Under the pieces are notes generated by a model that had not been told where the DNA came from, searched no databases, and saw nothing but the letters and a program-made list of their open reading frames with translations. Made by a program: the position numbers and the translations under genes. DNA of 64,000 nucleotides from Streptomyces zhihengii. Lineage in GTDB: Bacteria; Actinomycetota; Actinomycetes; Streptomycetales; Streptomycetaceae. Positions 6,690-25,865 of this stretch are shown piece after piece. The first letter of the stretch is position 1; every line of letters begins with the position of its first letter. The stretch lies in contig NZ_JAFEJA010000001.1 in the NCBI RefSeq assembly GCF_016919245.1, positions 2,824,001 to 2,888,000 on the forward strand, written 5' to 3'.

Positions 6690-7871
6690 TCACAGGTGTT
6701 CGGGTGCGCTGATGCCGAGCAGGGACAGGCCACCGGCGAGCACCGTCCCGGCGGCCTCGGCGAGGGCCAGCCGGGAACGGTGGGCGGCCGAGGGTTTCTC
6801 GTCCCCTGCGGGCAGCACCGTGTGCTGGAAGGCCAGCAGGGCCTCGGCCGTCGCCTCCAGATGCCTGGCGAGCCGGTCCGGCGCGCGCAGCCGGGCGGCG
6901 TCGGCGACGACCACGGGGTGGTCGGCGATCGCCTGCGTCAGCACGGGCGCGTCCACGACCTCCTCGGCCGCGGCCTCGAACCCGAGCAGCCCGGCCCCCC
7001 GCGTCAGCGCCCGCGCCCGCGCGTGGGCGTAGCGCACCTTGTACAGCGGATTGCGCTCGTGCTGCACGAGGACGTTGTGGGTACGGGGGCGGTCGTGCGC
7101 CGCGGCGGAGAGCATGGCCCAACGGGCGGCGTCCACCCCGACCTCGGCCACGAGGCCGGGAGGGGCGGGGGTGACGTGGAGGTGGGGGGCGGGTGCGTGG
7201 GGCTCGGGTGAGCGGTCCGCGGCTGGGCGCGGCTCGGCGACCCGGGGCTCGGCGGGGTTGGGCTCCGTGGGGTTGGGCTCGGCCGGGCGGGGCTCGGCGA
7301 CCCGGGGCTCGGCGCCCATACGGTGGAGGACCTCGGCCCAGAGGGCGGCGCGGTCGTCGGGGGTCGGCAGCGGGTACACCCGCTGGGTCAGCCGCACGGA
7401 GGTGGCGTCGCCGACGACGGCACCGACCGCGGGCCGCCGGCCCCTCGTGCCTTGATCCGGCCGGACCACGGACGCCCCGGAGGGCTCCGCGGCCGCGACG
7501 GGCGCGTCCACGGGCCGTCCCCCCGGCATGCCGTAACCGGTCCCGGCCGCACGCACGGCCTCGACCAGGCGCTGCTGGGCGCTGCCCTCCAGGGTGACGT
7601 TCAGGAATCCGGGGCCGGTGATCTCGACCCGCTCGACGCCGGGGGCGCGGGCGATGCGCTCGCCCAGCACACCGGCCACCTCCCGGGGCGGCCGCCCGGC
7701 GGGCCCGGCGAGCCGCAGCGCGATCCCGGTCGCCCAGTCCCCGGTGCCCCCGGGCCGCGGCCGCTCCACGCGGACACTCGACGCCTCGGGGACCTCCACG
7801 GCCAGTGCGCCCTCCTCGACCGCACGGCACACGGCACGCGCGACGGTACGGGACAGCTCGGCGGGGGTCAC
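6690..7871 (-). CDS. nrtL: ArgS-related anticodon-binding protein (NrtL-like)
   Basis: Protein of 393 residues related to arginyl-tRNA synthetase but much shorter than a real ArgS. The N-terminal part resembles the ArgS additional domain ([15 protein letters not shown] at about 90-105). The C-terminal part resembles the DALR anticodon-binding domain ([21 protein letters not shown] onwards, ending [10 protein letters not shown]). The catalytic HIGH and KMSKS regions are missing, and a proline-rich linker with repeated [13 protein letters not shown] units occupies about 215-245. It therefore cannot charge tRNA by itself and its role is unknown. The start is the GTG at 7871 ([14 protein letters not shown]). 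It sits directly upstream of lysA, as in other Streptomyces. Confidence 0.85.
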
Positions 7872-9817: not shown

Positions 9818-10816
9818 GTGGCCGGGAACGATATGGGCGTGTTCGGGGTCACGGCACGGGAGGAAGAGCTCTACCGGCACTTCCTGCGGAACCCCGGTAC
9901 CCCTGCCGACGACGTGCACCTGCTGCTGGGCACCGATCCCGACGAGACGCCCGGGTGCCTGGAACGGCTGCGGGATCTGGGGCTGTTGCAGCCGTCCGGG
10001 ACGGACGGGCTGGTGACGCCGGTGGATCCGGAGCGGGCGCTGGCGCGGCTGACGGACCGGCGGCTGAACGAGCTGCACGAGGAGCTGCGGCGGGTCACCC
10101 GGGCGCGGCACGTGATCGACGGGCTCCGGGCGGAGGCCGCCGCGCGCAACGGGGCCGCCGCCGGGATCGAGCAGTTGGAAGGGCTCGCGGACATCCGCAA
10201 CCGGATCGACGACCTGGCGTTCTTCGCTCGGGAGGAGATCCTTGCGGTGGAGACGTACCCGCGGCTGTCGGCGGAGAACATCGCCCGGTCCCGGCCGCTG
10301 GATCTGAGGTGTCTGCGCCGTGGCGTGCGGATCCGGAACGTGGTCGTGCGCCGCGCGCTGGAGGACGGCCCGACAGCGGCGTATCTACGCGAGTTGACCG
10401 CGCACGGGGCCGAGATCCGGGTGACCTCGGAGACGGCCGAGCGGATGCTCGTCTACGACCGGAGCACCGCGCTGGTGCCGCTGGATCCGCAGAACACCGC
10501 GCGGGGCGCGCTGCTGGCGCACAAGAGCGGGCTGGTCACCAACATCATCGCGCTCTTCGAGAAGATCTGGGACGCCGCCGAGGATCTGGCGGAGGTGCTG
10601 CGTCCGGGCCGGCCGGTGGCGGAGTCGGAGCTGACCGAGCGGGAGCGGCGGGTGCTCACGTTCATGTGCACCGGGGGGAAGGACGAGGCCGGGGCGCGGG
10701 AGTTGGCGGTCTCCGTGCGGACGTACCGGCGCTATGTGGCGGAGCTGTTGCAGGCGCTGGGGGCGAACAGCCGGGCGCAGGCGGCGCTGCTGGCCCGTGA
10801 GCGGGGCTGGATCTGA
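9818..10816 (+). CDS. LuxR-type regulator with TrmB-like N-terminus, RiPP cluster
   Basis: About 332 residues. The N-terminal segment (VTAREEELYRHFLRNPGTPA ... LERLRDLGLLQPSG) is a TrmB-like winged helix. The middle (about 120-250) has the phospholipase-D-like fold often found in this regulator type (ERMLVYDRSTALVPLD). The C-terminus is a LuxR helix-turn-helix (LTERERRVLTFMCTGGKDE ... VRTYRRYVAELLQALGA). Regulators with this layout accompany thiopeptide and linear-azole clusters. The GTG at 9818, preceded by an AGGGGGG box, is chosen; an internal ATG at 9833 is possible. It is transcribed towards the rest of the cluster and converges on the minus-strand peptidase unit. Confidence 0.85.
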   Translation: MAGNDMGVFGVTAREEELYRHFLRNPGTPADDVHLLLGTDPDETPGCLERLRDLGLLQPSGTDGLVTPVDPERALARLTDRRLNELHEELRRVTRARHVIDGLRAEAAARNGAAAGIEQLEGLADIRNRIDDLAFFAREEILAVETYPRLSAENIARSRPLDLRCLRRGVRIRNVVVRRALEDGPTAAYLRELTAHGAEIRVTSETAERMLVYDRSTALVPLDPQNTARGALLAHKSGLVTNIIALFEKIWDAAEDLAEVLRPGRPVAESELTERERRVLTFMCTGGKDEAGARELAVSVRTYRRYVAELLQALGANSRAQAALLARERGWI

Positions 10817-11010: not shown

Positions 11011-11277
11011 TCACGGCAGGGTGCGGTGGGACCAGCCGCGTAACGCGGTGTCCGTGAAGGCGGCGGAGAGCGCGTGATGAACCGCCGTGAGGCCGGTGCG
11101 GGGCCCCGGGGTGATACGGAGGCGGACGCGGTCGGCGGCGACCTCGGGCTTGCAGGTCCAGTCCGGGGGGAGCAGCCAGAGCAGGCGGAGCACGGTGGTG
11201 GGGCCGGCCGGGGCGCGGCCGTCGTGGCGGACGGCCACGACGTCGACGTGGCGGGCGTCGGTGTCCGTCGACATCAT
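11011..11277 (-). CDS. Small protein paired with M20 amidohydrolase (unknown function)
   Basis: 88 residues, beginning MMSTDTDARHVDVVAVRHDG and ending ALRGWSHRTLP. No family recognised. Its ATG overlaps the stop of the upstream M20 gene (ATGA at 11277-11274), so the two are translationally coupled. It is hydrophobic in the middle (TVLRLLWLLPPDWTC) with one cysteine, and has no signal peptide. A role as partner or chaperone of the amidohydrolase, or in product tailoring, is inference from coupling only. Confidence 0.75.
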   Translation of the reverse strand: MMSTDTDARHVDVVAVRHDGRAPAGPTTVLRLLWLLPPDWTCKPEVAADRVRLRITPGPRTGLTAVHHALSAAFTDTALRGWSHRTLP

Positions 11278-12623
11278 GCCGAGGCCTCCGGGCGGGTCGA
11301 GCGGGACGGGGCTTCGGGACGGGCGGGGCGGGACGGGGCCTCCGCGTGGTCCGGGTCTGACGGGGGCTGCGCGCCCTCCGGGCGGGCCCGGAGGGTGTGG
11401 AGGGCAGCGGAGGTGAGGGCCGTGATGCCGGTGGGCAGGGCGGTGCGGACGTCGGGGGCGAACTCCGGGGAGTGGTTGGGCGGGAGGGGGGCGCCCGTGG
11501 CGAGGGCCTCGCGCCAGCGGCGGGCGCCGGTGGTGCCCAGGAGCCAGTACGCGAGGGGGACGCCGCCGGCCCCGAAGTGGGCGTAGTCCTCGACGGCGCC
11601 CAGGACCGGTGCGGACATCACCCGGCCCGAACCGAGCGCCGCCGCGTGGACGCGGCGCAGGGCGGCGGTGGCGGCCGGGTCGGGGGTCAGGGCGGGCGCG
11701 CGGGAGGTCACCGTGATGTCGGGCGGGTCCTCGCTCCCGGAGGCGGCGCACTCGGCGCGGACGACGCGTTCCACGGCGGCGCGCACGCGGTCCAGGGCCC
11801 GGTCGTCCACGGCGCGCAGCGAGAGGGCGAGTTCGGCGCGGTCGGGGATGACGTTGGCCCGCTCCCCCGCCCGCAGCGATCCGACGGTGAGGACCACCTG
11901 TTCGGCGGGCGCGCACTCGCGGGAGACCACGGTCTGGAGGCGCAGCACCACGGCGGCGGCGGTGACGACCGGGTCGACGGCGAGGTGGGGGGTGCCGCCG
12001 TGGCCGCCGCGGCCGCGGACGACGACGTCCAGGGTGGTGCCGGCGGGCATCAGGGGCCCGTGTCCCGCGTGGGCGACCGCCCCGGCGGGGAGGGGGGCGG
12101 CGTGCTGGGCGAGGACGACGGCGGGGGTGCCGAACCGTTCGTAGAGCCCGTCCGCCAGCATGGCCCGCGCCCCGTCGAGGGTCTCCTCCGCGGGCTGGCC
12201 GACCAGGACGACGGTGCCCCGCCAGGTGTCGCGCGCCGCGGCGAGGGAGGCGAGGGCGCCCGCGGCGGCGGCCAGGTGCAGATCGTGGCCGCAGGCGTGC
12301 ATCACCCCGGGGACGGTGCTGGCGTACGGGAGTCCGGTGCGCTCGGTGACGGGGAGGGCGTCCAGTTCGGCGCGGAGCATGACGGTGGGGCCGGGGCCGT
12401 TGGCGAGGACGCCCACGGTGCCGTGTCCCCCGCCGACCCCGCGGGTGACGGCGCACCCGTGGTCGTGGAGCCAGCCGGCCAGGCGGTCGGCGGTGCGGTG
12501 CTCGTGGCCGGAGAGTTCGGGGTGGGTGTGGAGGTCGAGGTAGAGCTCCAGCGCCGGCCTCAGGGAGGGAAGGGCGGGCGCCGGGGCGGGGGCATCGGGC
12601 GCGGTGACCGTCTCGGACTCCAC
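11274..12623 (-). CDS. M20-family amidohydrolase / peptidase, RiPP cluster
   Basis: Zinc-dependent hydrolase of the M20D type (N-acyl-amino-acid, hippurate or IAA-amino-acid hydrolase relatives), about 449 residues. Visible are the opening LYLDLHTHPELSGHEHRTAD, the metal motif VMHACGHDLHLAA, the catalytic acids in VGQPAEET, the dimerisation-domain GRGGHGGTPH, and the late histidine in LPPNHSPEF. A GTG at 12623 is preferred because GGAGG lies 5 bases upstream; GTG at 12635 is an alternative. It is divergent from the precursor gene and shares its upstream region. It could trim the peptide or cleave an N-acyl or amide bond in the product, or serve self-protection; none of this is shown by the sequence. 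Confidence 0.88.
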   Translation of the reverse strand: MESETVTAPDAPAPAPALPSLRPALELYLDLHTHPELSGHEHRTADRLAGWLHDHGCAVTRGVGGGHGTVGVLANGPGPTVMLRAELDALPVTERTGLPYASTVPGVMHACGHDLHLAAAAGALASLAAARDTWRGTVVLVGQPAEETLDGARAMLADGLYERFGTPAVVLAQHAAPLPAGAVAHAGHGPLMPAGTTLDVVVRGRGGHGGTPHLAVDPVVTAAAVVLRLQTVVSRECAPAEQVVLTVGSLRAGERANVIPDRAELALSLRAVDDRALDRVRAAVERVVRAECAASGSEDPPDITVTSRAPALTPDPAATAALRRVHAAALGSGRVMSAPVLGAVEDYAHFGAGGVPLAYWLLGTTGARRWREALATGAPLPPNHSPEFAPDVRTALPTGITALTSAALHTLRARPEGAQPPSDPDHAEAPSRPARPEAPSRSTRPEASA

Positions 12624-12960
12624 GGGGTCCTCCACTTCGTCGTGCCGGTGGGTGGTGCGTCGCGGGCTTCGGGCCGGTGGTGCGGTGGGGCGGCCGTGCG
12701 GTCGTCCGGTGGGCCGGGGGCGGGGCCTTGGGCCGGTGGCGATGCACCCCCGGGGGTGGCGCGCCCCCGGCCGGTGGGTGCGCTGGTCGACAGGGTGCGG
12801 TACGGGGTGCGCACGGGGACGTCGGGCCGCTGTCAGGGGGTGACAGCGGACTGACAGCGGGCGGCGGGCCGATGTGACAGCGGCGGGCGCTGCAATGGAG
12901 TCCTCGCAAGGGAAGCGCCGCCGGACCGCCGGCGGCCCCCGGTGACCGAAGGAGAACGCC
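12624..12960. promoter_or_regulatory. Divergent control region of precursor and M20 genes
   Basis: 337 bases without a gene between two divergent starts. The precursor-proximal half carries heptamer repeats (listed separately), and TGCAATGG at about 12891-12898 is a possible -10 region for the precursor. The peptidase-proximal half is a G-rich stretch with no motif that I can identify. Confidence 0.6.
12827..12883 (+). promoter_or_regulatory. Candidate SARP operator: repeated TGACAGCGG
   Basis: Three direct copies of TGACAGCGG start at 12841, 12852 and 12875, with an inverted copy CCGCTGTCA at 12827-12835. The first two are exactly 11 bp apart and the third 23 bp further. SARP activators typically bind heptamer direct repeats at 11- or 22-bp periods just upstream of the -10, and this cluster encodes a SARP. 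The block ends about 78 bases before the precursor start. Confidence 0.6.
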
Positions 12961-13137
12961 ATGGCCCCGAAGACGGAGCTCGCCACCCTCGCCGACGAGA
13001 TCCTGGAGCTGGAGTCGGAGACCTTCGAGATCTCGGACTACTCGGACGCGGTCGAGGTCGTCCTCGCCGGCTGCACCTCGTCCTCCTCGACGTCCACCTG
13101 CTCCAGCACCACCAGCACCACCTCCTGCAGCGCCTGA
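12961..13137 (+). CDS. RiPP precursor peptide, thiopeptide/linear-azole type
   Basis: 58-residue peptide preceded by GAAGGAG six bases before the ATG. The leader (about residues 1-37) is acidic and begins MAPKTELATLADEILELESE; the FEISDYSDA that follows matches the LEISDY-type motif of thiopeptide leaders. The putative core (about 38-58, directly after VVLAG) has three Cys, ten Ser, seven Thr and a final Ala, so 20 of 21 residues are substrates for azoline formation or dehydration. Cys are at core positions 1, 10 and 19. It is on the plus strand, against the biosynthetic operon, and is closed by a strong terminator. The cleavage site is inferred from composition, not known. Confidence 0.92.
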   Translation: MAPKTELATLADEILELESETFEISDYSDAVEVVLAGCTSSSSTSTCSSTTSTTSCSA

Positions 13138-13160: not shown

Positions 13161-13200
13161 CGGCCCCTTTCCCGGGGGGAAGTCCCCGGGAAAGGGGCCG
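13161..13200 (+). terminator. Strong terminator behind the precursor gene
   Basis: Perfect 17-bp inverted repeat (CGGCCCCTTTCCCGGGG and its complement) around a 6-base loop, 23 bases after the precursor stop. It is symmetrical enough to act on the convergent YcaO transcript too. Confidence 0.9.
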
Positions 13201-13246: not shown

Positions 13247-15274
13247 TCAGGGGAACGGATGCGGCACGGCCTTGATCTCGTCCTCGCGCAGGTCGCGGGG
13301 GTGGCGTCCGGACGTCCTCGGGGCGGTGCGCAGCCGGGGCATCAGCAGGGCGCGCTGGCGGGTCCAGCCGAAGTCGATGGGCAGCAGTCCGGGCACGGTG
13401 GTGCTGACGGTGTGCAGGCCCATCCGCCGCTGTTCGGGGGTGGTCTGGTCGACGGCGACGACGTCGTGTCCGGCGCGGACCAGGTCGTCGGTCAGCAGGC
13501 GGAGGTCGTCCATCAGGTCGCCGGTGCGGGGCCGGCGCGGGGTCCAGTCGGCGAAGGCCTCGGCGAGCGGGAGGACGGCGGACGGCTCCAGGAACTCGCG
13601 TGCGTGCACGGCCATCGCGGGCAGTCCGTAGAGCTGGGCGTGGTCCTTGAGGTGGAGCACCTTGGTGAAGTCCCCGGCCATGGCCTCCAGTTCGCCGATC
13701 CGGTCGGCGACCTGGTAGGGCAGGTGGGGGATGTAGGTGAGCACCTCGGACAGGGCGGCCTCGACGGTGGCCTCGGGGTCGAATCCGGCCGCGGCGCTGA
13801 AGGAGAGGGTGCCGGGGCCGCCGTCGCGCCGGACGGCGAGGGCGGTGACGACGGGGACGGCGAGGTCCATCCGGGTGTCGTAGGCGTGGACGTCGTAGCC
13901 GTGCAGGGCGGCCCGGTCGAGCATGGCGCGGACGGCGCGTCCCCGGCAGCCGGCGAGGTCGATCTCGGTGAGCCGGGTGCGGCCGTACCAGGCGACCAGG
14001 AAGGCGTCCCGTTCGACGAGTTCGAGCAGGCCGAAGAGGATCGCCTCGGCCAGGCTGCTGCCGGTGGCGCAGCCGTTGGAGCACTCGAAGACGAAGTTGT
14101 CGGCGTCGACGCCGGCTCCGTAGTGGGCGAGGCGGGCGGGGACGAGGAGCGGCCGGTCGTCGCGGAGCGAGTGCCCCCACACCCAGGGGATCTCCCGGTC
14201 GGGGTCGAAGGGGCTGACGAGGTGGTCGCGTTCGTAGGTCTCGGGGGCGTAGAAGCCGCAGTCTGCGGGGTCGAGGGCGGGGGTGCCGGCGGCGAGGAGG
14301 GCGCGGTGGGAGGCGGTGACGGGCGAGGTGCCGCGCCGGCGGTGGGTGCCCGCGTACCGTTCGAGCCCTTCGAGGTGGGCGAGCCGGCGGCTGGTGGCGT
14401 AGGAGTTGGCCTGGCCGCTGAAGGTGACGTCGTTGAGCCCCGCGTAGCCGCGGACGAAGTGGGTGCCGGCGACGGGGGCGGTGGTGGTGGACGCCGGGTT
14501 GATCCAGGTGTCGGAGCCGAGGGCGCCGCAGACGGGGTTGGCCAGGGCGGCGGTGGGGAGCGGGTAGGAGCCGAGGGGGCGCAGCCGGTAGCCGTCCGGG
14601 TCCGGTTTGGGGGTGGGGCCCAGGGTCATCCGGGCCGCTTCGGCGGTGTCGGGGCGTTCGGTGACGCAGGACGGGCACAGCGGCTCGGGCAGCAGCGGGA
14701 AGGTGGCGGTGGCCAGGGTGCCGAGGTCGACCCGGGTCACCCGGGGCAGGGCTCGGTCGGCGTCGGAGACGGTGGAGGGGGCCGGGCGCCCGCCGGGGAG
14801 CATCGCCTGCCAGGCGGCCCAGACGGCGTCCACCGCCCAGTCGGTGAACACGGGCCAGGCGGTGGCGCCGTGGGGCTCGTAGCCGAGTTCGAGCGCTTCG
14901 CGCTCCGAGCGGCTGCGCAGGCGCTGCCAGCGCATGGCGAGGCACTGGCCGCACGCGCCGGCGGTGCCTGCGCCGCCCCAGGGGCCGATGAGCACGGCCC
15001 GCGAGGTGAGGTGGACGGTGGCGGCGGGGCGCACGGCGGCGTACGGGTCGGGCCGGCCGAAGCCGAGGGTGTCGGTCGAGCCGAGCGGCACGACCAGCGG
15101 CGCGGGGAGAGCGCCGGGGGTGGTGTCCGGTGCGAGGAGCCCCGTGTGGCGGGCCGTCAGGGCGCGCTGGAGGTGGGCGCGGGCGGCCTCCAGCGGGGTG
15201 TCGGCGGACACCTCGGGGGCGACCTCGGGCGCGCGGGCGGCGCGGGCGGGCGGGGCGGTGGCGGTGGCGGTCAT
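13247..15274 (-). CDS. YcaO-domain cyclodehydratase 1 (TOMM)
   Basis: 675 residues. YcaO enzymes activate the peptide backbone with ATP so that Cys, Ser or Thr side chains close to azolines. The N-terminal region (about 1-230) carries cysteine pairs GACGQC and CPSC, likely zinc ligands. The YcaO domain shows EGLERYAGTH, ECSNGCATGSSLAEAILFG and LLELVERDAFLVAWYGR, with the Glu/Arg ATP-Mg residues. The C-terminus ends PHPFP, the proline-rich tail that TOMM YcaOs place in the active site. The ATG at 15274 overlaps the ABC permease stop (ATGA). It is a paralogue of the YcaO at 23925-25865; the two may divide Cys and Ser/Thr sites. Last gene of the operon. Confidence 0.93.
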   Translation of the reverse strand: MTATATAPPARAARAPEVAPEVSADTPLEAARAHLQRALTARHTGLLAPDTTPGALPAPLVVPLGSTDTLGFGRPDPYAAVRPAATVHLTSRAVLIGPWGGAGTAGACGQCLAMRWQRLRSRSEREALELGYEPHGATAWPVFTDWAVDAVWAAWQAMLPGGRPAPSTVSDADRALPRVTRVDLGTLATATFPLLPEPLCPSCVTERPDTAEAARMTLGPTPKPDPDGYRLRPLGSYPLPTAALANPVCGALGSDTWINPASTTTAPVAGTHFVRGYAGLNDVTFSGQANSYATSRRLAHLEGLERYAGTHRRRGTSPVTASHRALLAAGTPALDPADCGFYAPETYERDHLVSPFDPDREIPWVWGHSLRDDRPLLVPARLAHYGAGVDADNFVFECSNGCATGSSLAEAILFGLLELVERDAFLVAWYGRTRLTEIDLAGCRGRAVRAMLDRAALHGYDVHAYDTRMDLAVPVVTALAVRRDGGPGTLSFSAAAGFDPEATVEAALSEVLTYIPHLPYQVADRIGELEAMAGDFTKVLHLKDHAQLYGLPAMAVHAREFLEPSAVLPLAEAFADWTPRRPRTGDLMDDLRLLTDDLVRAGHDVVAVDQTTPEQRRMGLHTVSTTVPGLLPIDFGWTRQRALLMPRLRTAPRTSGRHPRDLREDEIKAVPHPFP

Positions 15275-16026
15275 GTCCGGTCGCTCCAGCGGAAGGTCTT
15301 CAGCGCGACGGCGCCGAGGACGAGGGCGACGCCGGCGAGGACCCCGCAGGCCAGGGCGATGTCGGAGCCGGAGCCGCTGCCGGTGAGGGCGGCGGAGACG
15401 CCGTCGTTGAGGTAGTAGAGCGGCAGGGCGTGGGCGAGGTCCTGCATCCAGCCCGGCATGGCGTCGATCGGGAAGAAGGAGCCGGAGAGGAACGCCATGG
15501 GGATCATCAGGCAGTTGGCGACCGCGGCGACGGCCTCCGGGGTCTTCGCGAAGGTGCCGACGATGACGCCGACGGCGAGGAACGCGGTGATGCCGAGCAC
15601 CAGCACCGGCAGGACCAGCGGCCAGCTCCCGGCGGGGGCCAGTCCGAAGAACGGCAGCATGGCCACCGCCACGAAGAGCACCGCCTGGACGACGCCGATG
15701 GCCACGGCGAGCACATAGCGGGAGGCGAGCACGGCGGGCAGCCGGACCGGGGTCATCCGGATCAGCCGGAGGATGTCGTCGCGGCGCCACTGCATGAGGA
15801 CGAAGCCGATGCCGAAGACGGCGGCGTTGGCGACGCCCCAGGAGAGCACGCCGGGCGCGATGTAGTCGATGTAGGGGGCGCCGCTCTGCTCGACGTCCTT
15901 GCCGCTGAAGATCAGGCCGAAGACGACGAGGAAGAGCAGGGGGAAGGCGAAGGTGAAGAAGAGGGTGGTCCTGTCGCGGGTGTAGGCCTTGTGGCCCGCC
16001 CGGGTGAGTGCGGCGTATGCGCTCAT
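15271..16026 (-). CDS. ABC-2 type transporter permease, RiPP export
   Basis: 251 residues with about six hydrophobic segments (TLFFTFAFPLLFLVVFGLIF, YIAPGVLSWGVANAAVFGIG, LVLPVLVLGITAFLAVGVIV and others), in the pattern of the ABC-2 permease family. It contains the usual FLSGSFFPIDAMPGWMQ segment before the last membrane helix. It follows the ATPase gene by about 50 bases and overlaps the YcaO start by 4, so all three are one unit. It probably exports the mature peptide or confers producer protection; other substrates cannot be excluded. Confidence 0.92.
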   Translation of the reverse strand: MSAYAALTRAGHKAYTRDRTTLFFTFAFPLLFLVVFGLIFSGKDVEQSGAPYIDYIAPGVLSWGVANAAVFGIGFVLMQWRRDDILRLIRMTPVRLPAVLASRYVLAVAIGVVQAVLFVAVAMLPFFGLAPAGSWPLVLPVLVLGITAFLAVGVIVGTFAKTPEAVAAVANCLMIPMAFLSGSFFPIDAMPGWMQDLAHALPLYYLNDGVSAALTGSGSGSDIALACGVLAGVALVLGAVALKTFRWSDRT

Positions 16027-16078: not shown

Positions 16079-16999
<921 letters not shown>

Positions 17000-17019: not shown

Positions 17020-17110
17020 GGCTCGGGCCGCCGTCGGCAGGTGTGGTCACGCGGCTCGGGCCGCCGTCAGCGGGTGTGGTCACGGGGCTCATGCCGCCGT
17101 CAGCAGGTGG
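17020..17110. repeat. 33-bp tandem repeat at the M50/ABC junction
   Basis: Two full 33-bp copies begin at 17020 and 17053, and a partial third at 17086 covers the last codons of the M50 gene. The period is a multiple of three, so the repeat keeps the frame of the longer ABC ATPase reading. Confidence 0.8.
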
Positions 17111-18201
17111 TGGACGAGTGCCGCGGCCGCCGCGGCGAGCAGGCCGATGACGAGCAGGGAGCCCAGCCCGTAGGCCGTGTAGGCGGTGCGGGCGCGGCGC
17201 GGGTACGAGGCGGCGGCGGGGTCGCGGCGGACCGCGAGGCGGAGGTAGGCGCGGCTGGAGGCGGCGAGTTCGGTGGCGCCGGCGAACTGCGCGGCGATCT
17301 TGTAGCCGTCGAGCGGTGGGAGCGGGACGAGCATGGACAGCGCCTGGACGGTGCCGAGGAACAGCAGCGCGGCGACGGCGTCCCGGGTGGCCGCGTCCAG
17401 CGGTGCCCAGAGCCAGAGGGCGGAGAACGGCAGCAGGAAGAGCAGGTTCGTCACGGAGCCGGCGAGGGCGGTGGCGATCCGGGCCCGCCGGGTGGGCAGG
17501 TAGAGGTAGTCGTCCACCGTGCAGTACATGATCACCATCGGCAGCCGCCAGCGCAGGCCGATCTCGGCGACGGTGCCGCCGTGGTGGCGGGCGACCACGC
17601 CGTGGGCCAGTTCGTGCAGGGCGGTGCTGAGCCACAGCAGGCAGGCGGCGGCGGTCAGCGGGACGGGCCGGGTGAAGAGGTCCAGGGCGGCGGCTGCCAG
17701 TTCGCCGACATGGAGGACGAGGACCGTCTCCATCGCGACGACGGCGGCCAGCAGCGCGGTGATCCAGGCCGGGTGCAGCAGGAAGCCCAGGGCGCGGTGG
17801 AGGCGCCCCGCGGTGGCGTCGGCGTCGGCCACCAGGCGGAGGGTGCCGCGCAGCAGGGTGCGGGGCGGTTCGGGGGCGGGCTCGGGGCGGGGCGCCGCCG
17901 GGGAGCCGTCGAGCAGCCCGCGGGTGCCGAGCATGCCGAGGAGCTGTTGCCAGTGGGCGTCGCCGAGGCGGCGTCCGTACCGTCCGGCGTACTCGTCGCC
18001 GATCTCCGCGAGGCTGCGGGTGCCGTCCATCCGGGAGATGAGGAAGGACTCCTTGTCGCCGACCTTGAAGGACTGGCCGCGGCCGGTGTCCTTGATAAGC
18101 CGGACGGTGGCGGGGCCGTGCAGCAGGACGTCGCTGACCAGGACGCCGGACCGCAGGGCGGGCCGGTACGGGGCGGGTGCCGCGGCGGGTCCGGCGCTCA
18201 C
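17089..18201 (-). CDS. M50-family membrane zinc metalloprotease with PqqD-like N-terminus
   Basis: 370 residues. Residues about 20-95 look like a PqqD/RRE-like fold (ATVRLIKDTGRGQSFKVGDK ... SLAEIGDEYAGRYG), which in RiPP systems binds leader peptides. The rest is a polytopic M50 protease: HELAH at 196-200 and the distal aspartate in PPLDGY (about 298), with several membrane helices and a C-terminal helix LLVIGLLAAAAAALVHHLL. The GTG at 18201 overlaps the upstream stop (GTGA). It may remove the leader at the membrane before export through the adjacent ABC pair; that role is inferred. Confidence 0.87.
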   Translation of the reverse strand: MSAGPAAAPAPYRPALRSGVLVSDVLLHGPATVRLIKDTGRGQSFKVGDKESFLISRMDGTRSLAEIGDEYAGRYGRRLGDAHWQQLLGMLGTRGLLDGSPAAPRPEPAPEPPRTLLRGTLRLVADADATAGRLHRALGFLLHPAWITALLAAVVAMETVLVLHVGELAAAALDLFTRPVPLTAAACLLWLSTALHELAHGVVARHHGGTVAEIGLRWRLPMVIMYCTVDDYLYLPTRRARIATALAGSVTNLLFLLPFSALWLWAPLDAATRDAVAALLFLGTVQALSMLVPLPPLDGYKIAAQFAGATELAASSRAYLRLAVRRDPAAASYPRRARTAYTAYGLGSLLVIGLLAAAAAALVHHLLTAA

Positions 18202-19247
18202 GCGGACTCCCGCAGGCACCGGCCCAGCACATGGGAGAGGTACGCCTCGTCCTGGATGGTCACATGCAGCCGGTTGTTGGTCATGTGCATGTACGGAGAG
18301 AGGAGCAGGGGCAGGGCGGCGGCCGGGTCGGTGACCCGCTCGGCGCGCTCGCCGTCCCAGGAGCGGAAGACCAGGTCGCCGTCGGCCGCCAGCCGCCGCG
18401 CGCGGTCGCGCAGTTCGGCGCAGTGCTCGGCCCAGCCGGCCAGGAACGCGGGCAGCCGGCCCTCGGTGCCGCCCGCGACGGCGGCGCGGACGGCGGCGAA
18501 GCGGGCGGTCAGGCCGGGGGCCATGGCCGTCCAGTTGCGGTCGTACTCGTCGGTGCCGATGAAGCCGGTGCCGGGGAAGGCGCGGTGCCAGAAGTCGTAG
18601 TAGCTGTCCAGGTAGCCGGCGAGGTCGTCGCGGTCGGGCAGGAAGGTGCCCGACATGACCATCATGAGCTGGGCCGAGGTGCCGAGCAGGACGGTACGCA
18701 GGTGGAGGTTCTTGGTGGCGAAGGCGTCGAGCACCAGCTCGCTGGAGTACCGGAAGTGCCACTCGGCGAGCTCGATCCCGGCCGGGCCGCCGTACTTGCC
18801 GTACTCCGGCTCGTAGGGCTCGGCACTGCGCGAGTTGTTGGGGCGCAGGTTCATCCGGCCCTGCTCGTCGAGGTAGGGGGTGCGTTCGGTGCCGGGGAAC
18901 TCGATCTCGAACAGGGTGTTGTAGAAGTCGTTGAGGAAGCCGGAGTCCACCTCGTACAGCGCCGGACGTTCGGCGAGGAAGCGGTCGACCGCCGCCTCCG
19001 TGCGGCGGCGCACCTCCGCCTCGGCCGCCGGGGAGGCCGGCCGCAGGCGCAGCCGGACATGGGGGCCTTCGAGCCAGTAGTTGATGAAGAACCAGTTGGC
19101 CAGCAGCCCTTCGGCCTCCAGTTCGGCGACCAGCGGGCGGACGCACTGGAGCAGCATCGGGCGGGGGTTGGCGGCGTAGAAGACGTGCGTCGCCTGCCAG
19201 GCGCCGGTGCCGGTGGCCGCGGGGGCGGCGGGTGTGGTGGTGGTCAT
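18198..19247 (-). CDS. Lanthipeptide-type dehydratase elimination domain protein (SpaB-C/TbtC-like)
   Basis: 349 residues of the thiopeptide-type bacteriocin biosynthesis family (SpaB C-terminal domain). In split dehydratases it eliminates glutamate from glutamylated Ser/Thr to leave dehydroalanine or dehydrobutyrine. The opening WQATHVFYAANPRPMLLQCV and FINYWLEGPHVRLRLRP, then LMMVMSGTFLPDR and SPYMHMTNNRLHVTIQDEAY near the end, are typical. [4+2] cyclases of pyridine-forming thiopeptides belong to the same superfamily, so eye alone cannot exclude that activity. As it is the only such protein, elimination is the more economical reading. It overlaps both neighbours by 4 bases. Confidence 0.86.
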   Translation of the reverse strand: MTTTTPAAPAATGTGAWQATHVFYAANPRPMLLQCVRPLVAELEAEGLLANWFFINYWLEGPHVRLRLRPASPAAEAEVRRRTEAAVDRFLAERPALYEVDSGFLNDFYNTLFEIEFPGTERTPYLDEQGRMNLRPNNSRSAEPYEPEYGKYGGPAGIELAEWHFRYSSELVLDAFATKNLHLRTVLLGTSAQLMMVMSGTFLPDRDDLAGYLDSYYDFWHRAFPGTGFIGTDEYDRNWTAMAPGLTARFAAVRAAVAGGTEGRLPAFLAGWAEHCAELRDRARRLAADGDLVFRSWDGERAERVTDPAAALPLLLSPYMHMTNNRLHVTIQDEAYLSHVLGRCLRESA

Positions 19248-22192
19248 CGGACGTGCTCCCCTCGGGGCTCGGCGGCCGGCGCGGTGGCCGGGGCCTGCGG
19301 TGTGGTCTCGACGGCGAGCTCCGCGACGTGCCGGCCACGGGCGGAGCTGACGTGCAGGTCGTCCTCGTCGGGCAGGGCCTCCCGCAGGACCACCCGGGCC
19401 TCGGGGCTCTTGACCAGCGCCTCCAGGGCGGACAGGGACAGCGGGCTGTCGAAGTCGACGTACTGGGGCTTGGCGCCGGTCGCGCCGCGCGCGCCGCTGT
19501 CCGAGACGGTGGCGAACACCCGGTCGGGCAGGCCGTGGGCGCGGCGGAAGCGGTGCCAGCCGAGGAACCACTCCGCGTCCTGCGCGCCGCCGGGCGCCTG
19601 GAGCGGCAGCGCGGTCGCCGGGGCGCTCCAGCTCCGCCGGCTGAGCACCAGGGCGCCGTGCCGCACCCGGGGCCGGGTGGTGACGCCGTCCACCGGGTCG
19701 CTCTCCGGTACGCCGCCCCAGACGTTCAGCGGGGCCATCGAGGTGGGCGAGAGCAGCAGCAGGGTGCGGGCCAGTTCGGGCAGGGCCAGCGGCACCAGAT
19801 AGCCGAGGTACACGGGGACGACCTCGCGGCCGAGGCGCTCCGAGCGCAGCACCAGCCGGTCGGCCGTCTCGTCGTGCTCGATGTACAGGTCGTCCAGGCC
19901 GATGCGGAACTCCTCGGCCAGGGTGCCCTGTTCGCCGGGGCAGACGATCTCGTGCCCGGTGAGCCGGCCGTGCAGGTTGAGGTTGCTGGTGACGGGGCCG
20001 CCGGTGACCTCGGCGAACACGGCGCCGGGCGGGCACAGGGCCGCGGAGGCGTCCCGCAGCCGGTCGTCGAGGCCGTCGAAGCAGTGGGTGAAGCGGCTGA
20101 ACGGGAAGGACAGGCCGCCGTAGGAGCGGTTGAGGACGACGAGCGGGTCCCCGGGGCGGTCGGCGAGCTGCACATGGTGGCTCATCGGGGCGAAGTGCGG
20201 TGCGACAGGGGTGAGTTCCTCGGCGACGGCGGTGAGGAACGCCTCGTCGACGACGATCTCGGCGGCGCCGCCGGGGCGGGACTCCCACAGGGACCGCATC
20301 CGCTCCGTAAACGTCAGCCGGGCGGTGTCCAGGGCCTTGAGCTCGGGCAGTCCGAGCCAGTTCACCTCGGGCACGTACCGGCCGTCCGCGTCGAACGCGG
20401 TGCGCTGCGCGGTGAACGACATGTACTGGTCGAAGAAGTCCTCGTGGAAGTCGTGGACCAGCTTCAGCACGTCGTCGCAGCGCCCGCCCCGGCCGTGGCG
20501 GGCGAGGAAGAACCCCTTGAGCACCAGCCGCTGGGGCAGCGTCAGGTCGAAGGCCGGCAGCACCCGCTCCACCGCGGCCAGCGGCCGGTGCGCGATCCGG
20601 TCCCAGACCTCGCGGTCCGGCGCGCCGGTGTACCCGGCGGCGGCGTCCTCGTAGAGCACGGTCTGCGGGACCCTGCCCTGCCCGGCACCCAGCTCCTCCT
20701 GGATCTCGCGCAGTTCGGTGCGCAGCGCCGCGAGGATCGCCGGCCGGTCCGCGGGGGCGGCACGGGCGAAGCGGTCGACGTGGGAGACGGGGCCGTCCAG
20801 TCGCGAGGCGAGGGTGTCCGCCCAGGGGCGTCCCACGGCCCTCAGGGAGTCCTGGAACGCCCGCAGCGGGTCGGTGTCGTGGACCTGGGTCCGCAGGCAC
20901 GGGACCTGCACCATGCCGACGTCGAGCAGGGCTTCGAGATAGCGCTCGACGTCGCCGGCCCCGGCGCCGTGCTCGACGGCGAGCCAGCCGGCGAGTTCGC
21001 CGTACCGCAGGCTGCCCCGCTCCTCGAAGAGGCCGAGCAGGCGTTCCAGGGTGCCGCTGCGGCGCAGGAAGAACAGGCGGTCCTGGACGGCGTCGAAGGT
21101 GACGGCGGTGTCCTCGTCGCCCGCGGTGACCCAGCGGCGCACATAGCGGACCCGGTCGTCGTCACGGCCCCAGCCGGAGGCGAGCGCCACGGGCAGGTCG
21201 GCGCGGCGGCCCGGGTCGGCGACGACGGTGTCGGCGAGCCGGCCGAGGGCGGCGACGTTGAGCCGGGCGTGCCCCGTCCAGACGTCGCCGACCCGCAGCT
21301 CCAGCCCGCTCGGCGTCCCGGCGTCGCCGGAGGTGCCGGGGCGCCCGGCGGGGGCGGGGCCGGCGCTGCCGGTGGTCCCCGTGGCGCCGGTACTCCCGGC
21401 GTCGGCGGTCACGGCGCTCCCGGTGGCCCCCGTGCTCCCGGCGTCGGCGGTCACGGCGCTCCCGGTGGCCCCCGTGCTCCCGGCGTCGGCTGGCCCGGTG
21501 GTCCCCGTGCTCCCGGTACCCCCGGCACTCCCGGCGAAGGCCGCCCCGGCGCTCCCGGGGCCGTCGGCGGTGAGGCCGCCGACCGCGACGCCGGTGAAGG
21601 TGGAGAACGGGCTCGTCTTGCAGACCGTGCGGTACAGGTACGCCAGCAGCGACCGCTCGATCTTGCGGCCCTTCTTGTCCGGCACGGCCGCGGGATCGGC
21701 GGCCCACCTGCGCACCTGGGCGTCCAGTTGCGCGTCCAGCGCGGGCGAGGCGAGCAGCAGCGCCCGGCGCAGCCGCTCCTCCCCCGCCAGGCGGTGGAGC
21801 GCGGCCCGGCTGCGGGCGGTCTCCTCGGCGAGCACCCGGGCGCCCTCGCGCCCGTGGCGCTCCAGCTCCCCGCGGGCCTCCAGCCAGGCGCCGAGCGCGC
21901 GGCCGGCCACGGGGTCGAGGCCGCGCACCAGCGCCAGGGCGGCGTCCGCGTCCCGGGGCAGGCGGCCGTTGAACACCTCCCGGCGCAGGGCGAGCAGCCG
22001 CCGGCGGACGGCGTCGTCCTCGCTGCCCCCGATCAGCGGGTGCAGCAGGTCGCCGACGGCCTCGCCGCCGGCGCGCACCGCGTCGGCGGCGGTGACGGTC
22101 TCGTCGGCCCAGCGGCGGCTGCCGGGGCAGCGCAGCTCCCGCACGCTCGCGGCCGGCAGTCCGGCCACCCGCAGCATGAACGGTCCGGTCAT
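19244..22192 (-). CDS. Lantibiotic dehydratase N-terminal domain protein (TbtB-like, glutamylating)
   Basis: 982 residues of the Lant_dehydr_N type, which transfer glutamate from glutamyl-tRNA to Ser/Thr of the precursor. The motif SLLAYLYRTVCKTSPFSTFT (about 181-200) is diagnostic, followed by FFLARHGRGGRCDDVLKLVH, MSHHVQLADRPGD and the C-terminal half VETTPQAPAT. Residues about 206-293 are a low-complexity Gly/Ser/Thr/Ala insertion with 14-residue repeats (ADAGSTGATGSAVT), unlike the rest. The start MTGPFMLRVAGLP at 22192 follows GGGAGAGGG; an in-frame ATG at 22216 is possible. The next gene (elimination domain) starts inside its stop codon. Confidence 0.92.
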   Translation of the reverse strand: MTGPFMLRVAGLPAASVRELRCPGSRRWADETVTAADAVRAGGEAVGDLLHPLIGGSEDDAVRRRLLALRREVFNGRLPRDADAALALVRGLDPVAGRALGAWLEARGELERHGREGARVLAEETARSRAALHRLAGEERLRRALLLASPALDAQLDAQVRRWAADPAAVPDKKGRKIERSLLAYLYRTVCKTSPFSTFTGVAVGGLTADGPGSAGAAFAGSAGGTGSTGTTGPADAGSTGATGSAVTADAGSTGATGSAVTADAGSTGATGTTGSAGPAPAGRPGTSGDAGTPSGLELRVGDVWTGHARLNVAALGRLADTVVADPGRRADLPVALASGWGRDDDRVRYVRRWVTAGDEDTAVTFDAVQDRLFFLRRSGTLERLLGLFEERGSLRYGELAGWLAVEHGAGAGDVERYLEALLDVGMVQVPCLRTQVHDTDPLRAFQDSLRAVGRPWADTLASRLDGPVSHVDRFARAAPADRPAILAALRTELREIQEELGAGQGRVPQTVLYEDAAAGYTGAPDREVWDRIAHRPLAAVERVLPAFDLTLPQRLVLKGFFLARHGRGGRCDDVLKLVHDFHEDFFDQYMSFTAQRTAFDADGRYVPEVNWLGLPELKALDTARLTFTERMRSLWESRPGGAAEIVVDEAFLTAVAEELTPVAPHFAPMSHHVQLADRPGDPLVVLNRSYGGLSFPFSRFTHCFDGLDDRLRDASAALCPPGAVFAEVTGGPVTSNLNLHGRLTGHEIVCPGEQGTLAEEFRIGLDDLYIEHDETADRLVLRSERLGREVVPVYLGYLVPLALPELARTLLLLSPTSMAPLNVWGGVPESDPVDGVTTRPRVRHGALVLSRRSWSAPATALPLQAPGGAQDAEWFLGWHRFRRAHGLPDRVFATVSDSGARGATGAKPQYVDFDSPLSLSALEALVKSPEARVVLREALPDEDDLHVSSARGRHVAELAVETTPQAPATAPAAEPRGEHVR
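21401..21484. repeat. 42-bp tandem repeat inside the dehydratase gene
   Basis: Two essentially identical 42-bp units start at 21401 and 21443, with degenerate copies on both sides (about 21340-21540). They encode the repeated 14-residue Ala/Gly/Ser/Thr unit of the insertion and keep the reading frame. Confidence 0.85.
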
Positions 22193-22219: not shown

Positions 22220-23845
22220 TCAGGCGATCTCGTAGCGGAAGTCGGCGGGCCCGGGGCGCTCGTTGCCGATCAGCATGATCAGCAGCGGCGCCTCGCCCGT
22301 GCCGTCGAGGCCCAGCTCCTCGATGTACGAGATGTTGTCGAAGCCCAGGGCGACGCCGCAGCCGAGGCCGAGGGCCGACGAGGCGGTGTAGACGGCCTGG
22401 GAGACGGCCCCGACGGTGGCGTTGACCAGGCGGTAGCCGCGGTCGCCGACGGCGTCGAGGACGGCGGCGGTGCGCACGGTGGGCACCAGGACCGCGCCGG
22501 CCTGCTCCAGGTTGTAGTTGGACAGGAAGTAGTTCTTCTGGAGGAAGGCGCCGGGGCGTTCCTCCGAGATCAGCCGCAGGCCGCGGGTGCCGGGGTCGTA
22601 CTCGTAGGAGCCGGGCGCCAGGCCCTCGACGTGGTTGACGAAGGCGTACAGCTTGGCCAGCCGCACGTCGTCGCCGCCGGTGTCGCCGCCGAGCCGCGCG
22701 CCGGCCGCCGCGGCGGCCAGACAGGCGGCCAACTGGTCGGCGGCGACCGGCCGCTGGGCGTCGAAGCGGCCGAAGCTGCTGCGCCGGCGGCGCAGCGCGG
22801 TGCGCACGTCCGTGTCCATGGGGCGGGCCGTGGGGAGCGGGACCTCGGGGGCGCCGGGGCGGGCGGGCGGTGCGGCCGCCGGGGCGAGCGCCCCGGGGGC
22901 GGGGCGGGCGGCGGCGTCGCGGGAGGTCGCCCGCTGCATCTCGCGCACGGCGTCGAACGCGAGGACGGTGCGGGAGCGTTCGGCGTCGGTCCGCCGCACG
23001 GAGGCGGCGGCGGGAGCGGTCCGGGCGGGGGTGCCCGTCCAGTGCAGCGGGACGACGGCGAAGACGCCCTCCTCCTCGGTGCGCACCCCGAGCAGCCGGG
23101 CCAGGCGCTCCTCGTCGAACCACATCAAGGGCGCGACGGCGAGGCCCCGGGCGCGGGCCCACATCCGCCAGGTGCCGACCACGGTGCCGATGTCCATGCT
23201 CACGGCGTGGAACGAGAAGCTGTTGTACTTGAAGGCGTTCTGCCAGTACTTGACGCCGAGGACGAGGTACTGGTCGGTGCCGGCGCCCGGCGCGTCCTCG
23301 CCGAGCGCCGCGCGGACCTCGCCGGTCACGTCGCCGGTGAGCAGCCGCTGCATCGCGTGGCGGCGGGTCGCGTAGTAGTGCACGCCGGGGGGCACGGGGC
23401 CGCTCGGGCCGGAGACCCAGTAGACGCCGACCGGGTAGAGGCCGCCGCCGGAGGCGGTGCCCCGCGACCAGTTGGCGAGCGGGTAGTCGGGCAGCGCGTG
23501 GAGGTCGGTGTTGGCCTGGACGCCGAGGCGCCGGCCGGTCAGCCCGTAGGAGTCGCGCAGCATGCCGGAGAGGGTGCCGAGGTCGAAGCGCGCGGTGCCT
23601 TCGGGCGCGCGGCCGTCGGCGGGAGCCGGGCCTCCGGGCGCGCCGCCGTCGGGGCCGTCGGCGAGGCCGAGGTCGAGGGTGGCCCCGGCGGGGTAGCCGG
23701 CGGCGGGCAGCGGGAGGGTGTCCGCACCCGGGTAGAACTTGGTCTTGCGGGGGCCGTCGGCCCAGTCGGGGACGAAGTCGGCCGGGGGCATCGGGACCCG
23801 GCCGCGCCGCATGATCGCGGCGGCGTAGTCGTGGGCGTACCCCAT
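22220..23845 (-). CDS. SagB/ThcOx-type FMN dehydrogenase
   Basis: 541 residues of the nitroreductase-like SagB family, which oxidise azolines to azoles with FMN. Two nitroreductase-like halves are visible. The first contains YPLANWSRGTASGGGLYPVG and NAFKYNSFSFHAVSMDIGTV; the second begins RRRRSSFGRF and contains NYFLSNYNLEQAGAVLVPTV and the final GRDxGYR-like stretch VGDRGYRLVNATVGAVSQAV. The ATG at 23845 follows AAGGAG by six bases. It lies 27 bases before the dehydratase start and 79 bases after YcaO 2. It probably acts on the azolines made by the two YcaO proteins. Confidence 0.92.
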   Translation of the reverse strand: MGYAHDYAAAIMRRGRVPMPPADFVPDWADGPRKTKFYPGADTLPLPAAGYPAGATLDLGLADGPDGGAPGGPAPADGRAPEGTARFDLGTLSGMLRDSYGLTGRRLGVQANTDLHALPDYPLANWSRGTASGGGLYPVGVYWVSGPSGPVPPGVHYYATRRHAMQRLLTGDVTGEVRAALGEDAPGAGTDQYLVLGVKYWQNAFKYNSFSFHAVSMDIGTVVGTWRMWARARGLAVAPLMWFDEERLARLLGVRTEEEGVFAVVPLHWTGTPARTAPAAASVRRTDAERSRTVLAFDAVREMQRATSRDAAARPAPGALAPAAAPPARPGAPEVPLPTARPMDTDVRTALRRRRSSFGRFDAQRPVAADQLAACLAAAAAGARLGGDTGGDDVRLAKLYAFVNHVEGLAPGSYEYDPGTRGLRLISEERPGAFLQKNYFLSNYNLEQAGAVLVPTVRTAAVLDAVGDRGYRLVNATVGAVSQAVYTASSALGLGCGVALGFDNISYIEELGLDGTGEAPLLIMLIGNERPGPADFRYEIA

Positions 23846-23924
23846 GGGGAGCTCCTTGGTCGCAGTCTCGGGCGGGTGCGGGTGCGGGTGCGCGGTCACG
23901 CGGGGACGGGGGCGGCCGTGCCGG

Positions 23925-25865
23925 TCACGGGAAGGGGTGCGGGGCGGGGTTGAAGTCCTCGGGGACGAGGTCGCGGTCACGCAGACCCGCCTCGCGCAGG
24001 GCGGTCCGCAGCCGCGGCATGCCCAGCGCGCGCTGCCGGGTCCAGCCGAAGTCGATGGGCAGCAGCCCGGGCACCAGCACGCTGACGGTGTGCAGTCCGA
24101 GCCGGCGCTGCTCGGGCATGGTCTGGTCGACCACGATCACGTCGAAGCCGGCCGCCGCCACCGCGTCGGCGCAGCGCGTCAGGTCCTCCAGCAGGTCGTC
24201 CGAGACGGGCAGCAGGGAGCCGTCGCCGTAGACGTCGGCGAGGGAGCGCTTCGGCGGGCGGGGGGCGCCCGGTTCGCCGAGCAGGAAGTGGGCGTGGTCG
24301 CCCATCTCGGGGATGCCGTACGACAGGGGGTGGTCGTGCAGCGCCTCCACCTTGTCGAAGTCGTACGCCATGGCCCGCAGGCGTTCCTCGTCGCGCTCGG
24401 TGCGGCTCTGGAGGTTGACGGAGTCGGTGGCGATCTCGCAGAGGGCGCCCGCGAGGGCCGCCTCCGGGTCGAGGCCGGCGCCCGCGCCGAAGCACATCCG
24501 GCCCGGCCCGCCGTCGGGGCGCACCGCTACGCCGGTGACCACGGGCACCGGGAAGGAGATCCGGGTGTCGAAGAACCGGGCCTCGTAGCCGTACATCTCC
24601 AGCCGGTCGACCATGTGGCGGGTCCGGCGGCTGCCGCTGGTGCGCGGGTCGATCTCGGGCAGCGGCTGCCGCCCGTACCAGGCGAGCAGGAACGCGTCCC
24701 GCTCGACGACCTCCATCAGGCCGAAGTAGGCCGCCTCGGCGAGACTCCCGCCGGAGGCGCAGCCGTTGGAGGACTCCTGGACGAAGCGGTTCTCCAGACC
24801 GGGCGCGTGATAGTACGTCAGCACCTCCGGCACCAGCACGGGCTCCCGGTCGCGCAGCGACCAGCCCCACACCCAGGGGATCTCGCGGTCGGGGGTGAAG
24901 GGGGTGACCCGGGGGTTGGCCCGGTGGAACTCCGGCGAGTACAGGCCCACCACGCGCGGGTCCAGGGCGCGCTCGCCGCGGGCGGTGAGGGCGTCCAGGC
25001 TGTCGCGCACCCCGGCCCGCTTGGCGCGCGCCCGCATGCCCGCGTACCGCTCCAGGCCCTCCAGCACCCCGATGCGCACGCTCTGCGCGAAGGTGTCGGC
25101 GTGGCCGCCCCAGAACGTCTCGCGCAGGTAGTCGCCGGAGCGCATGGAGAAGCAGCCGATGGTCGCGGACGTGGAGAGCGAGGCGACGTCCTGGACGACG
25201 GAGGGCCCGAGCGACCCGCAGACCGGGTTGGCGTACGGCTCGACGGGCAGGTCGTAGTCGGCGATGTCGCGCACCCGGAAGCTGCCCGGCCGGTGCTTGG
25301 GCGCGGGCCGCAGATCGGGGCGGGCGGACCGCGCGGTGTCCTCCTCGGCCCGGCCGCAGCGGTGGCACTCCGGGTCGGGGACCAGCGGGTAGTGGCGCAC
25401 CCGCAGCGAGGCCAGGTCGACCAGGTGCACCACGGGGAACACCCGCTCGGCGGGCCCGAGTCCGGCGGACCGGGCGGCGATCAGCGCGGCGAGCGCGTCC
25501 GCCGCGAAGGGGGTGGCGTACGGGGAGTCGCCGGCGGCCCGGGTGCCCGAGCCGATCTCCAGCGCCTCGCGCAGCGCCACCGAACGCACCGCCTGCCAGC
25601 GGCGCTCCAGGCAGGTGCCGCAGGGGTCGTCGCCGCCCGGTCCGCCGGGGAACGGGCCGACGACGGCCTGCCGGCCGTAGAAGCGCACCGGCACGGAGCC
25701 GGGGGCGGCCGGCGGCCGCTCCGTGCGGAAGGCGTCGGCGACGCCGAGCGGCGCGACGTCCGCCGCGGCGGCCCCGCCGTGCGCGGCGAGCGCGGTACGC
25801 AGCCGCCCGGCCAGCTCCTCGGCGGAGCGGGCCCAGGGCGCGGCCTCGGCGACGCTCATCGTCAC
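23925..25865 (-). CDS. YcaO-domain cyclodehydratase 2 (TOMM)
   Basis: 646 residues, paralogous over its whole length to the YcaO at 13247-15274. Likely zinc pairs DPCGTC and ECHRC lie in the N-terminal third. ATP-binding elements GVLEGLERYAGMR, ESSNGCASGGSLAEAAYFG and LMEVVERDAFLLAWYGR are intact, and the tail ends PAPHPFP. Other shared blocks are TPFTPDREIPWVWGWSLRD and GLLPIDFGWTRQRALGMPRL. The GTG at 25865 overlaps the stop of the E1-like gene (GTGA), so it probably works directly with that leader-binding protein. Which residues each YcaO cyclises cannot be read from sequence. Confidence 0.93.
   Translation of the reverse strand: MTMSVAEAAPWARSAEELAGRLRTALAAHGGAAAADVAPLGVADAFRTERPPAAPGSVPVRFYGRQAVVGPFPGGPGGDDPCGTCLERRWQAVRSVALREALEIGSGTRAAGDSPYATPFAADALAALIAARSAGLGPAERVFPVVHLVDLASLRVRHYPLVPDPECHRCGRAEEDTARSARPDLRPAPKHRPGSFRVRDIADYDLPVEPYANPVCGSLGPSVVQDVASLSTSATIGCFSMRSGDYLRETFWGGHADTFAQSVRIGVLEGLERYAGMRARAKRAGVRDSLDALTARGERALDPRVVGLYSPEFHRANPRVTPFTPDREIPWVWGWSLRDREPVLVPEVLTYYHAPGLENRFVQESSNGCASGGSLAEAAYFGLMEVVERDAFLLAWYGRQPLPEIDPRTSGSRRTRHMVDRLEMYGYEARFFDTRISFPVPVVTGVAVRPDGGPGRMCFGAGAGLDPEAALAGALCEIATDSVNLQSRTERDEERLRAMAYDFDKVEALHDHPLSYGIPEMGDHAHFLLGEPGAPRPPKRSLADVYGDGSLLPVSDDLLEDLTRCADAVAAAGFDVIVVDQTMPEQRRLGLHTVSVLVPGLLPIDFGWTRQRALGMPRLRTALREAGLRDRDLVPEDFNPAPHPFP

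Follow-up and report, generated by a model that had tools for sequence, protein, structure and literature searches.

The stretch of Streptomyces zhihengii DNA analysed here (64,000 nucleotides, hereafter the window) contains a small gene at positions 12,961 to 13,137 which, judged by its sequence, encodes a real precursor of a ribosomally synthesized and post-translationally modified peptide (RiPP). The product of the adjoining gene cluster is probably (at roughly 0.7) a linear, goadsporin-like azole/dehydroamino peptide and not a true thiopeptide. This reading is built on computed evidence: the properties and conservation of the precursor, the genes that accompany it, the failure to find a pyridine synthase and the eliminase motifs of one cluster protein. 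The precursor family is widespread, seemingly uncharacterised and labelled thiopeptide in databases.

Ser and Thr residues are substrates over which cyclodehydratases compete with LanB dehydratases. An essentially all-reactive core with a Ser/Thr pattern that has stayed constant in many species through changes of codon provides a clean test system for this competition. The findings further suggest that a large group of clusters filed under thiopeptides does not make one, a point of importance for genome mining. The compound should be accessible, since S. griseus, S. albidoflavus, S. lavendulae and other common species carry the cluster.

An almost entirely reactive core

The original prediction had described a 58-residue open reading frame (ORF) in which 20 of the 21 core residues are Cys, Ser or Thr, with Cys at core positions 1, 10 and 19, and the translation agrees with it. 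The core CTSSSSTSTCSSTTSTTSCSA contains 10 Ser, 7 Thr, 3 Cys and a single Ala, the last residue and the only inert one; by this composition, nearly every core residue is indeed chemically convertible. The GC content at third codon positions is 1.00. Within the last 22 residues, 20 are Cys, Ser or Thr, as against 12 in the next best of the 355 window ORFs of at least 40 amino acids, and no such tail occurred among 60,853 simulated ORFs from 100 order-3 Markov windows (maximum 13), which places the tail far outside chance.

The precursor matches TIGR03892 (47.1 bits, cut-off 25) and NF033400 (35.6 bits, above its cut-off), both named thiazolylpeptide-type bacteriocin. A Pfam search gave no match at 0.01; PF19409 is precomputed for the same protein according to the protein-search listing. 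In the leader, the motif LExETF and D26 are conserved across 15 diverse precursors. Together with the neighbouring enzymes, the TIGR03892 match upholds the assignment to an azole/dehydroamino-acid RiPP cluster. The thiopeptide label itself is doubtful, given that the search of the cluster revealed no pyridine synthase.

Distribution and conservation of the precursor family

The core is not a singular case; it belongs to a large family. A protein search with the precursor, the check proposed originally, returned 90 proteins with such cores at E <= 0.001 (the query included). In a set of 100 genomes from 29 genera, with its own among them, 15 genomes from 2 genera contain the family. Scanning named genomes with a SpaB_C alignment yielded 197 relatives, of which 80 were kept, and a precursor with a Cys/Ser/Thr tail is visible in the fetched stretches of 67 of these 80 loci. 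Almost all records of the family are from Streptomyces. Two precursor genes with slightly different cores were found per genome at two loci (L041 and L083). The core of the window is a minority variant; STSCSSTSTCSSTTSTTSCSA is the one met most often in the fetched loci.

The constraint on the core was examined in 73 distinct precursor DNAs. The pattern used to pick them presupposed the leader motif and a core of Cys, Ser, Thr, Gly or Ala, so that only the Ser/Thr/Cys identities and the codons are informative. One residue is kept at 14 of the 21 core positions, and Cys occupies position 1 in 4 of the 73. Seven positions are invariant Ser; six of them (3, 5, 6, 8, 11 and 18) use both AGY and TCN codons, and position 15 is always AGC. 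A switch between the two codon boxes requires at least two nucleotide changes. These switches at invariant positions indicate that the identity of Ser versus Thr is maintained, beyond mere reactivity. The ratio of nonsynonymous to synonymous substitution rates in the core (0.48) is inflated by the same switches and was not used as evidence.

Among 35 distinct ungapped cores, swaps at positions 1, 2, 4, 6, 10, 14, 17 and 20 are mostly among Cys, Ser and Thr, and the positions that swap to Cys are likely azole sites, as far as substitution patterns can tell. These positions and the triad spacing mentioned below would place azoles near 1, 4, 7, 10, 14, 17 and 19/20, each directly preceded by dehydroalanine or dehydrobutyrine. 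Gly or Ala appears at position 5 in nine of these cores, and Ala at position 12 in three. Position 1 is Cys in 13 of them, directly preceded by Ser in seven and by Gly or Ala in the other six, including the core of the window.

Eliminase or pyridine synthase

It has been reported that the thiopeptide ring needs a [4+2] enzyme, whose homologues are ubiquitous in thiopeptide clusters (PMC4603692), and TbtC is the name of a thiopeptide eliminase (PMC10676384). If the single SpaB_C protein of the cluster performed both elimination and the [4+2] step, a pyridine macrocycle and thus a true thiopeptide would result; such a bifunctional enzyme is the main rival of the linear peptide, and we consider it unlikely.

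The search for relatives provided 110 related loci (111 with the window) in three overlapping sets, with some genomes represented twice. With profiles trained on alternate control proteins, exactly one SpaB_C protein was found in 110 of the 111, and it always scored best on the family profile; the remaining locus (L030) has none, and its stretch ends early. By comparison, 19 of 20 thiopeptide control loci hold at least two SpaB_C proteins, an eliminase type accompanied by one or two of the pyridine-synthase types; the remaining control locus is a 3.6-kb contig. The profile search detected a pyridine synthase in none of the 111 family loci, some of which are short contigs or cut stretches; absence is weaker evidence there, and the 86 fuller loci described below carry the weight.

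A genome-wide view was obtained by searching 394 genomes of the class with NF045556. Ten matches in eight genomes exceeded the cut-off, and each of the ten is adjoined by a second, weaker SpaB_C match. In the genome of the window, five of eight first-look candidates were scored and the only NF045556 match was the SpaB_C gene itself, with 95 bits against a cut-off of 325, covering profile positions 1-276 of 354 as the weaker neighbours do. PF14028 has four further matches in this genome. A pyridine synthase encoded elsewhere in the genome was considered, and it is unlikely on the basis of this sole match among the candidates scored.

In 31 of 31 family rows (the protein of the window counted twice), the TbtC-type profile scored higher than the pyridine-synthase profiles: 131-181 bits, as against 59-90 for one of the two pyridine-synthase profiles and at most 42, where reported, for the other. 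All 17 family proteins and all 10 TbtC-type partners carry the HxxxNR motif, which aligns with the elimination domain of MibB; it is present in none of 18 pyridine synthases and was found in only 1 of 9 second-type eliminases. A second motif, YxxE..YGG, was found in 16 of 17 family proteins and 7 of 9 second-type eliminases, and in neither the 10 TbtC-type proteins nor the 18 pyridine synthases. The NisB residues that we take to be its elimination residues were looked for and not confirmed.

Two observations on the protein favour the bifunctional enzyme and weigh against a linear product, and the match of the precursor to TIGR03892 points the same way. First, the AlphaFold model of the SpaB_C protein (mean predicted confidence, pLDDT, 80.7) has its nearest folds in TbtD, TsrL and PbtD, a comparison that is unable to separate an eliminase from a pyridine synthase. 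Second, in a first tree of 56 rows the family was sister to the pyridine synthases (support 95/92). When long branches were taken out (47 rows; the proteins of L159, L160, L168, L169 and L171 and both LanB rows of the own genome omitted), the pyridine synthases formed one clade without the family (100/99), the sister relation fell to 77/39, and a grouping of the family with TbtC-type eliminases was not rejected (approximately unbiased test, p-AU 0.395). On the evidence as a whole, the SpaB_C protein is taken as a predicted glutamate eliminase.

The precursor bears on this question too. The thiopeptide ring normally starts at a dehydrated Ser that opens the core. A position-1 Cys with no Ser before it, as in the six distinct cores mentioned above, may thus be modest evidence against such a ring.

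Extent of conversion

The original prediction had also proposed an almost fully converted backbone, and here the evidence suggests partial conversion instead. A quite improbable variant, broader in scope, is that the family represents a pyridine-free relative of the thiopeptides and a common, unrecognised RiPP class, whose product would be a near-full-length ribbon of azole and dehydroamino residues. In such a ribbon, the choice between azole and dehydroalanine (Dha) or dehydrobutyrine (Dhb) would be encoded only by Ser-versus-Thr identity and position.

Taken as a special case of the linear goadsporin-like peptide, conversion of almost all 20 reactive residues to azole or Dha/Dhb is possible and would be in keeping with the core composition, the presence of two cyclodehydratases beside a dehydratase and the 14 invariant core positions; we nevertheless hold it very doubtful. 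Gly and Ala are tolerated at positions 5 and 12. In goadsporin, which has been studied best among comparable peptides, azoles are formed first, and glutamylation and elimination follow at azole-adjacent residues, both of its Dha requiring a neighbouring azole (PMC5303826). Carnazolamide contains 8 azoles and 8 Dha made from 20 Ser/Thr/Cys and leaves three Ser/Thr intact, yet it shows that high conversion is feasible (PMC10676384).

A lanthipeptide-type product, in which Cys would add to Dha or Dhb, is hardly credible: a LanB-type dehydratase and Cys are present, but no LanC cyclase was matched among the scanned cluster proteins, and two YcaO enzymes with an oxidase point to azoles.

Comparison with known systems

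Goadsporin, a linear azole/Dha peptide of Streptomyces sp. TP-A0584, shares with the window a YcaO enzyme, a flavin oxidase and split LanB glutamylation and elimination proteins, and likewise has no [4+2] enzyme (PMC5303826, PMC4603692). It differs in its single fused cyclodehydratase, the N-acetyltransferase GodH and the peptidase-ATP-binding cassette (ABC) transporter GodB, whereas the window combines a pair of YcaO proteins with an F protein and with proteases of the M50 and M20 types, and has no acetyltransferase (none of the GNAT, GodH-type was found among the scanned cluster proteins), and only the last residue of its core is inert. Thiopeptide clusters have in common with the family the TIGR03892 precursor, F protein, YcaO, SagB and split LanB; on the other hand, no pyridine synthase was found in the family and its first core residue may be Cys.

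Nearest in outline are the coryneazolisins, which are predicted and uncharacterised (PMC4603692). As described there, they share two YcaO proteins, LanB-like dehydratases, a mostly Cys/Ser/Thr core and the lack of a [4+2] enzyme, and differ in their host (Corynebacterium), in having one discrete and one fused YcaO and in an Ile-interrupted core; this comparison is by description only. Carnazolamide and the dehydrazoles also carry azoles and Dha on a Ser/Thr/Cys-rich core, with dehydration after azole formation, and carnazolamide is distinguished by DUF4135 LanM-type dehydration, an NHLP leader and a radical S-adenosylmethionine epimerase (PMC10676384). DUF4135 (LanMbC) had no match among the scanned cluster proteins of the window, where the dehydratase is of the PF04738 LanB type.

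Spongiicolazolicins A and B from Streptomyces sp. CWH03, of 29 and 28 residues, are likewise linear azole peptides (PMC8838263), and the producer also carries the cluster of the window family (L049). As candidates for the product of the family they were rejected by inference, because another YcaO locus of Streptomyces pacificus CWH03 has better-fitting precursors: three in tandem at L120:19118-19825, about 9 kb from another YcaO gene. One of them (L120:19547-19825) could release, with the start chosen here, a tail of 29 residues that includes inert ones. These tandem precursors are the likelier source.

Literature searches, which mostly leave subscription papers outside, found no characterised member of the family and no characterised product with the same core, and five core and leader strings had no match in literature text within that scope; novelty in print is thus not proven. 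In S. albidoflavus, a genome survey recorded a cluster annotated 'LAP, Thiopeptide' that has 4% similarity to a known but unrelated cluster (PMC11678301); the recorded one is likely the cluster of the window family.

Proposed pathway

The predicted pathway, conserved among actinobacteria, resembles that of goadsporin, with two cyclodehydratases and a thiopeptide-type F protein. The order of steps, the division of residues between azole and Dha/Dhb, the cleavage site, the linearity of the product and the activity of each enzyme are all proposals. The leader (LESETFEISDY) would be held by the ThiF-like F protein, by the C domains of the two YcaO enzymes, or by both. The two YcaO enzymes would then form azolines from the Cys residues and some Ser/Thr, which the SagB oxidase would render aromatic. 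The split LanB enzyme might use Glu-tRNA to glutamylate Ser/Thr beside azoles, and the single SpaB_C protein would eliminate glutamate to leave Dha or Dhb. Removal of the leader could fall to the M50 protease, perhaps assisted by the M20 enzyme, and the ABC transporter would export the product. As no [4+2] step is included, no pyridine macrocycle would form.

The gene cluster and its relatives

The features of the locus are listed in Table 1.

Table 1. Precursor gene and neighbouring features in the window
Feature	Positions	Strand	Evidence or remark
Precursor peptide gene, 58 amino acids + stop	12961..13137	+	translation; TIGR03892, NF033400; family matches; codon conservation
Ribosome-binding site AGGAG, ending 6 nt before ATG	12950..12954	+	read directly
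Leader MAPKTELATLADEILELESETFEISDYSDAVEVVLAG	12961..13071	+	predicted cleavage site, possibly a residue or two earlier
Core CTSSSSTSTCSSTTSTTSCSA	13072..13134	+	translation, core comparison
Perfect 16-bp inverted repeat, 6-nt loop, terminator-like without T run	13162..13199	.	between convergent precursor and YcaO1 genes; read directly
YcaO1, fused C-D cyclodehydratase (TIGR03882 + YcaO), C-terminus PHPFP	13247..15274	-	profile matches, alignment
ABC-2 transporter permease (DrrB-like)	15271..16026	-	profile matches
ABC transporter ATPase (DrrA-like)	16079..16999	-	profile matches
M50 metalloprotease, candidate leader peptidase	17089..18201	-	daptide intramembrane protease model matched below cut-off
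Single SpaB_C (Lant_dehydr_C) protein, predicted glutamate eliminase	18198..19247	-	profiles, motifs, tree
Split LanB glutamylation enzyme	19244..22192	-	PF04738; best PDB match 6ec7
SagB-type flavin dehydrogenase, two nitroreductase-like stretches, predicted azoline oxidase	22220..23899	-	profile matches
YcaO2, second fused C-D cyclodehydratase, C-terminus PHPFP	23925..25865	-	profile matches, alignment
Ocin-ThiF-like F protein (predicted leader carrier), degenerate YcaO-like C-terminus	25862..28297	-	profile matches, alignment
SARP-family regulator	28302..30089	-	profile matches
M20 amidohydrolase/peptidase, perhaps trimming	11274..12635	-	present in 79/86 loci with all nine genes
88-amino-acid ORF	11011..11277	-	detected in 36/86 loci with all nine genes
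LuxR-type regulator	9818..10816	+	detected in 35/86 loci; elsewhere may lie beyond the fetched stretch

YcaO1 and YcaO2 align along their length. In CWH03, the counterpart of the F protein also scores as YcaO (1.6e-18), in addition to the two intact YcaO proteins of that cluster. The PDB entry nearest to the split LanB enzyme is presumably TbtB.

The set from M20 to ThiF was found in 12 of 14 fetched relatives; of the other two, L024 is truncated by its contig and L030 by the limits of the fetched stretch. Among the 12, L028 has its precursor at the opposite end and a truncated M20 gene. Across the 110 related loci, 86 have matches to all nine enzyme and transport genes, with two separate YcaO places in 85, SARP in 83 and M20 in 79. 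The precursor was detected by tblastn in 78 of these 86 and by inspection in two more (L172 and L181), and was not found in the other six (L040, L055, L096, L100, L175 and L183). In the remaining 24 loci, one or more of the nine genes had no match. Sixteen of these loci are short stretches (4-18 kb), L024 and L030 are truncated as above, L044 lacks only a permease match, and the distant relatives L171, L173 and L176-L178 show just one YcaO place. Genes beyond the SARP regulator fall outside most of the fetched stretches of the relatives. To the left of the cluster, positions 1548-7871 carry ordinary housekeeping genes (GHMP kinase, pyridoxal phosphate-dependent enzyme, homoserine dehydrogenase, diaminopimelate decarboxylase and NrtL).

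Several relatives depart from this pattern. Four of the distant loci (L173, L176, L177 and L178) form a further clade with RYGG for KYGG in the SpaB_C protein; they keep SagB, LanB, F protein and M50 beside the single YcaO place, and a Cys/Ser/Thr-only precursor was not found in their fetched 20 kb. The cut locus L030 has two tandem precursors with looser cores, one of which includes Asp. L172 and L181, belonging to another actinobacterial family, contain three or four precursors in tandem, and in some of their cores, for example TTSTSSTSTCSSCTSCTSCASF, Cys recurs at every third residue. This spacing is reminiscent of nostatin A, for which Dha/Dhb-azole-X triads have been described (PMC11583998).
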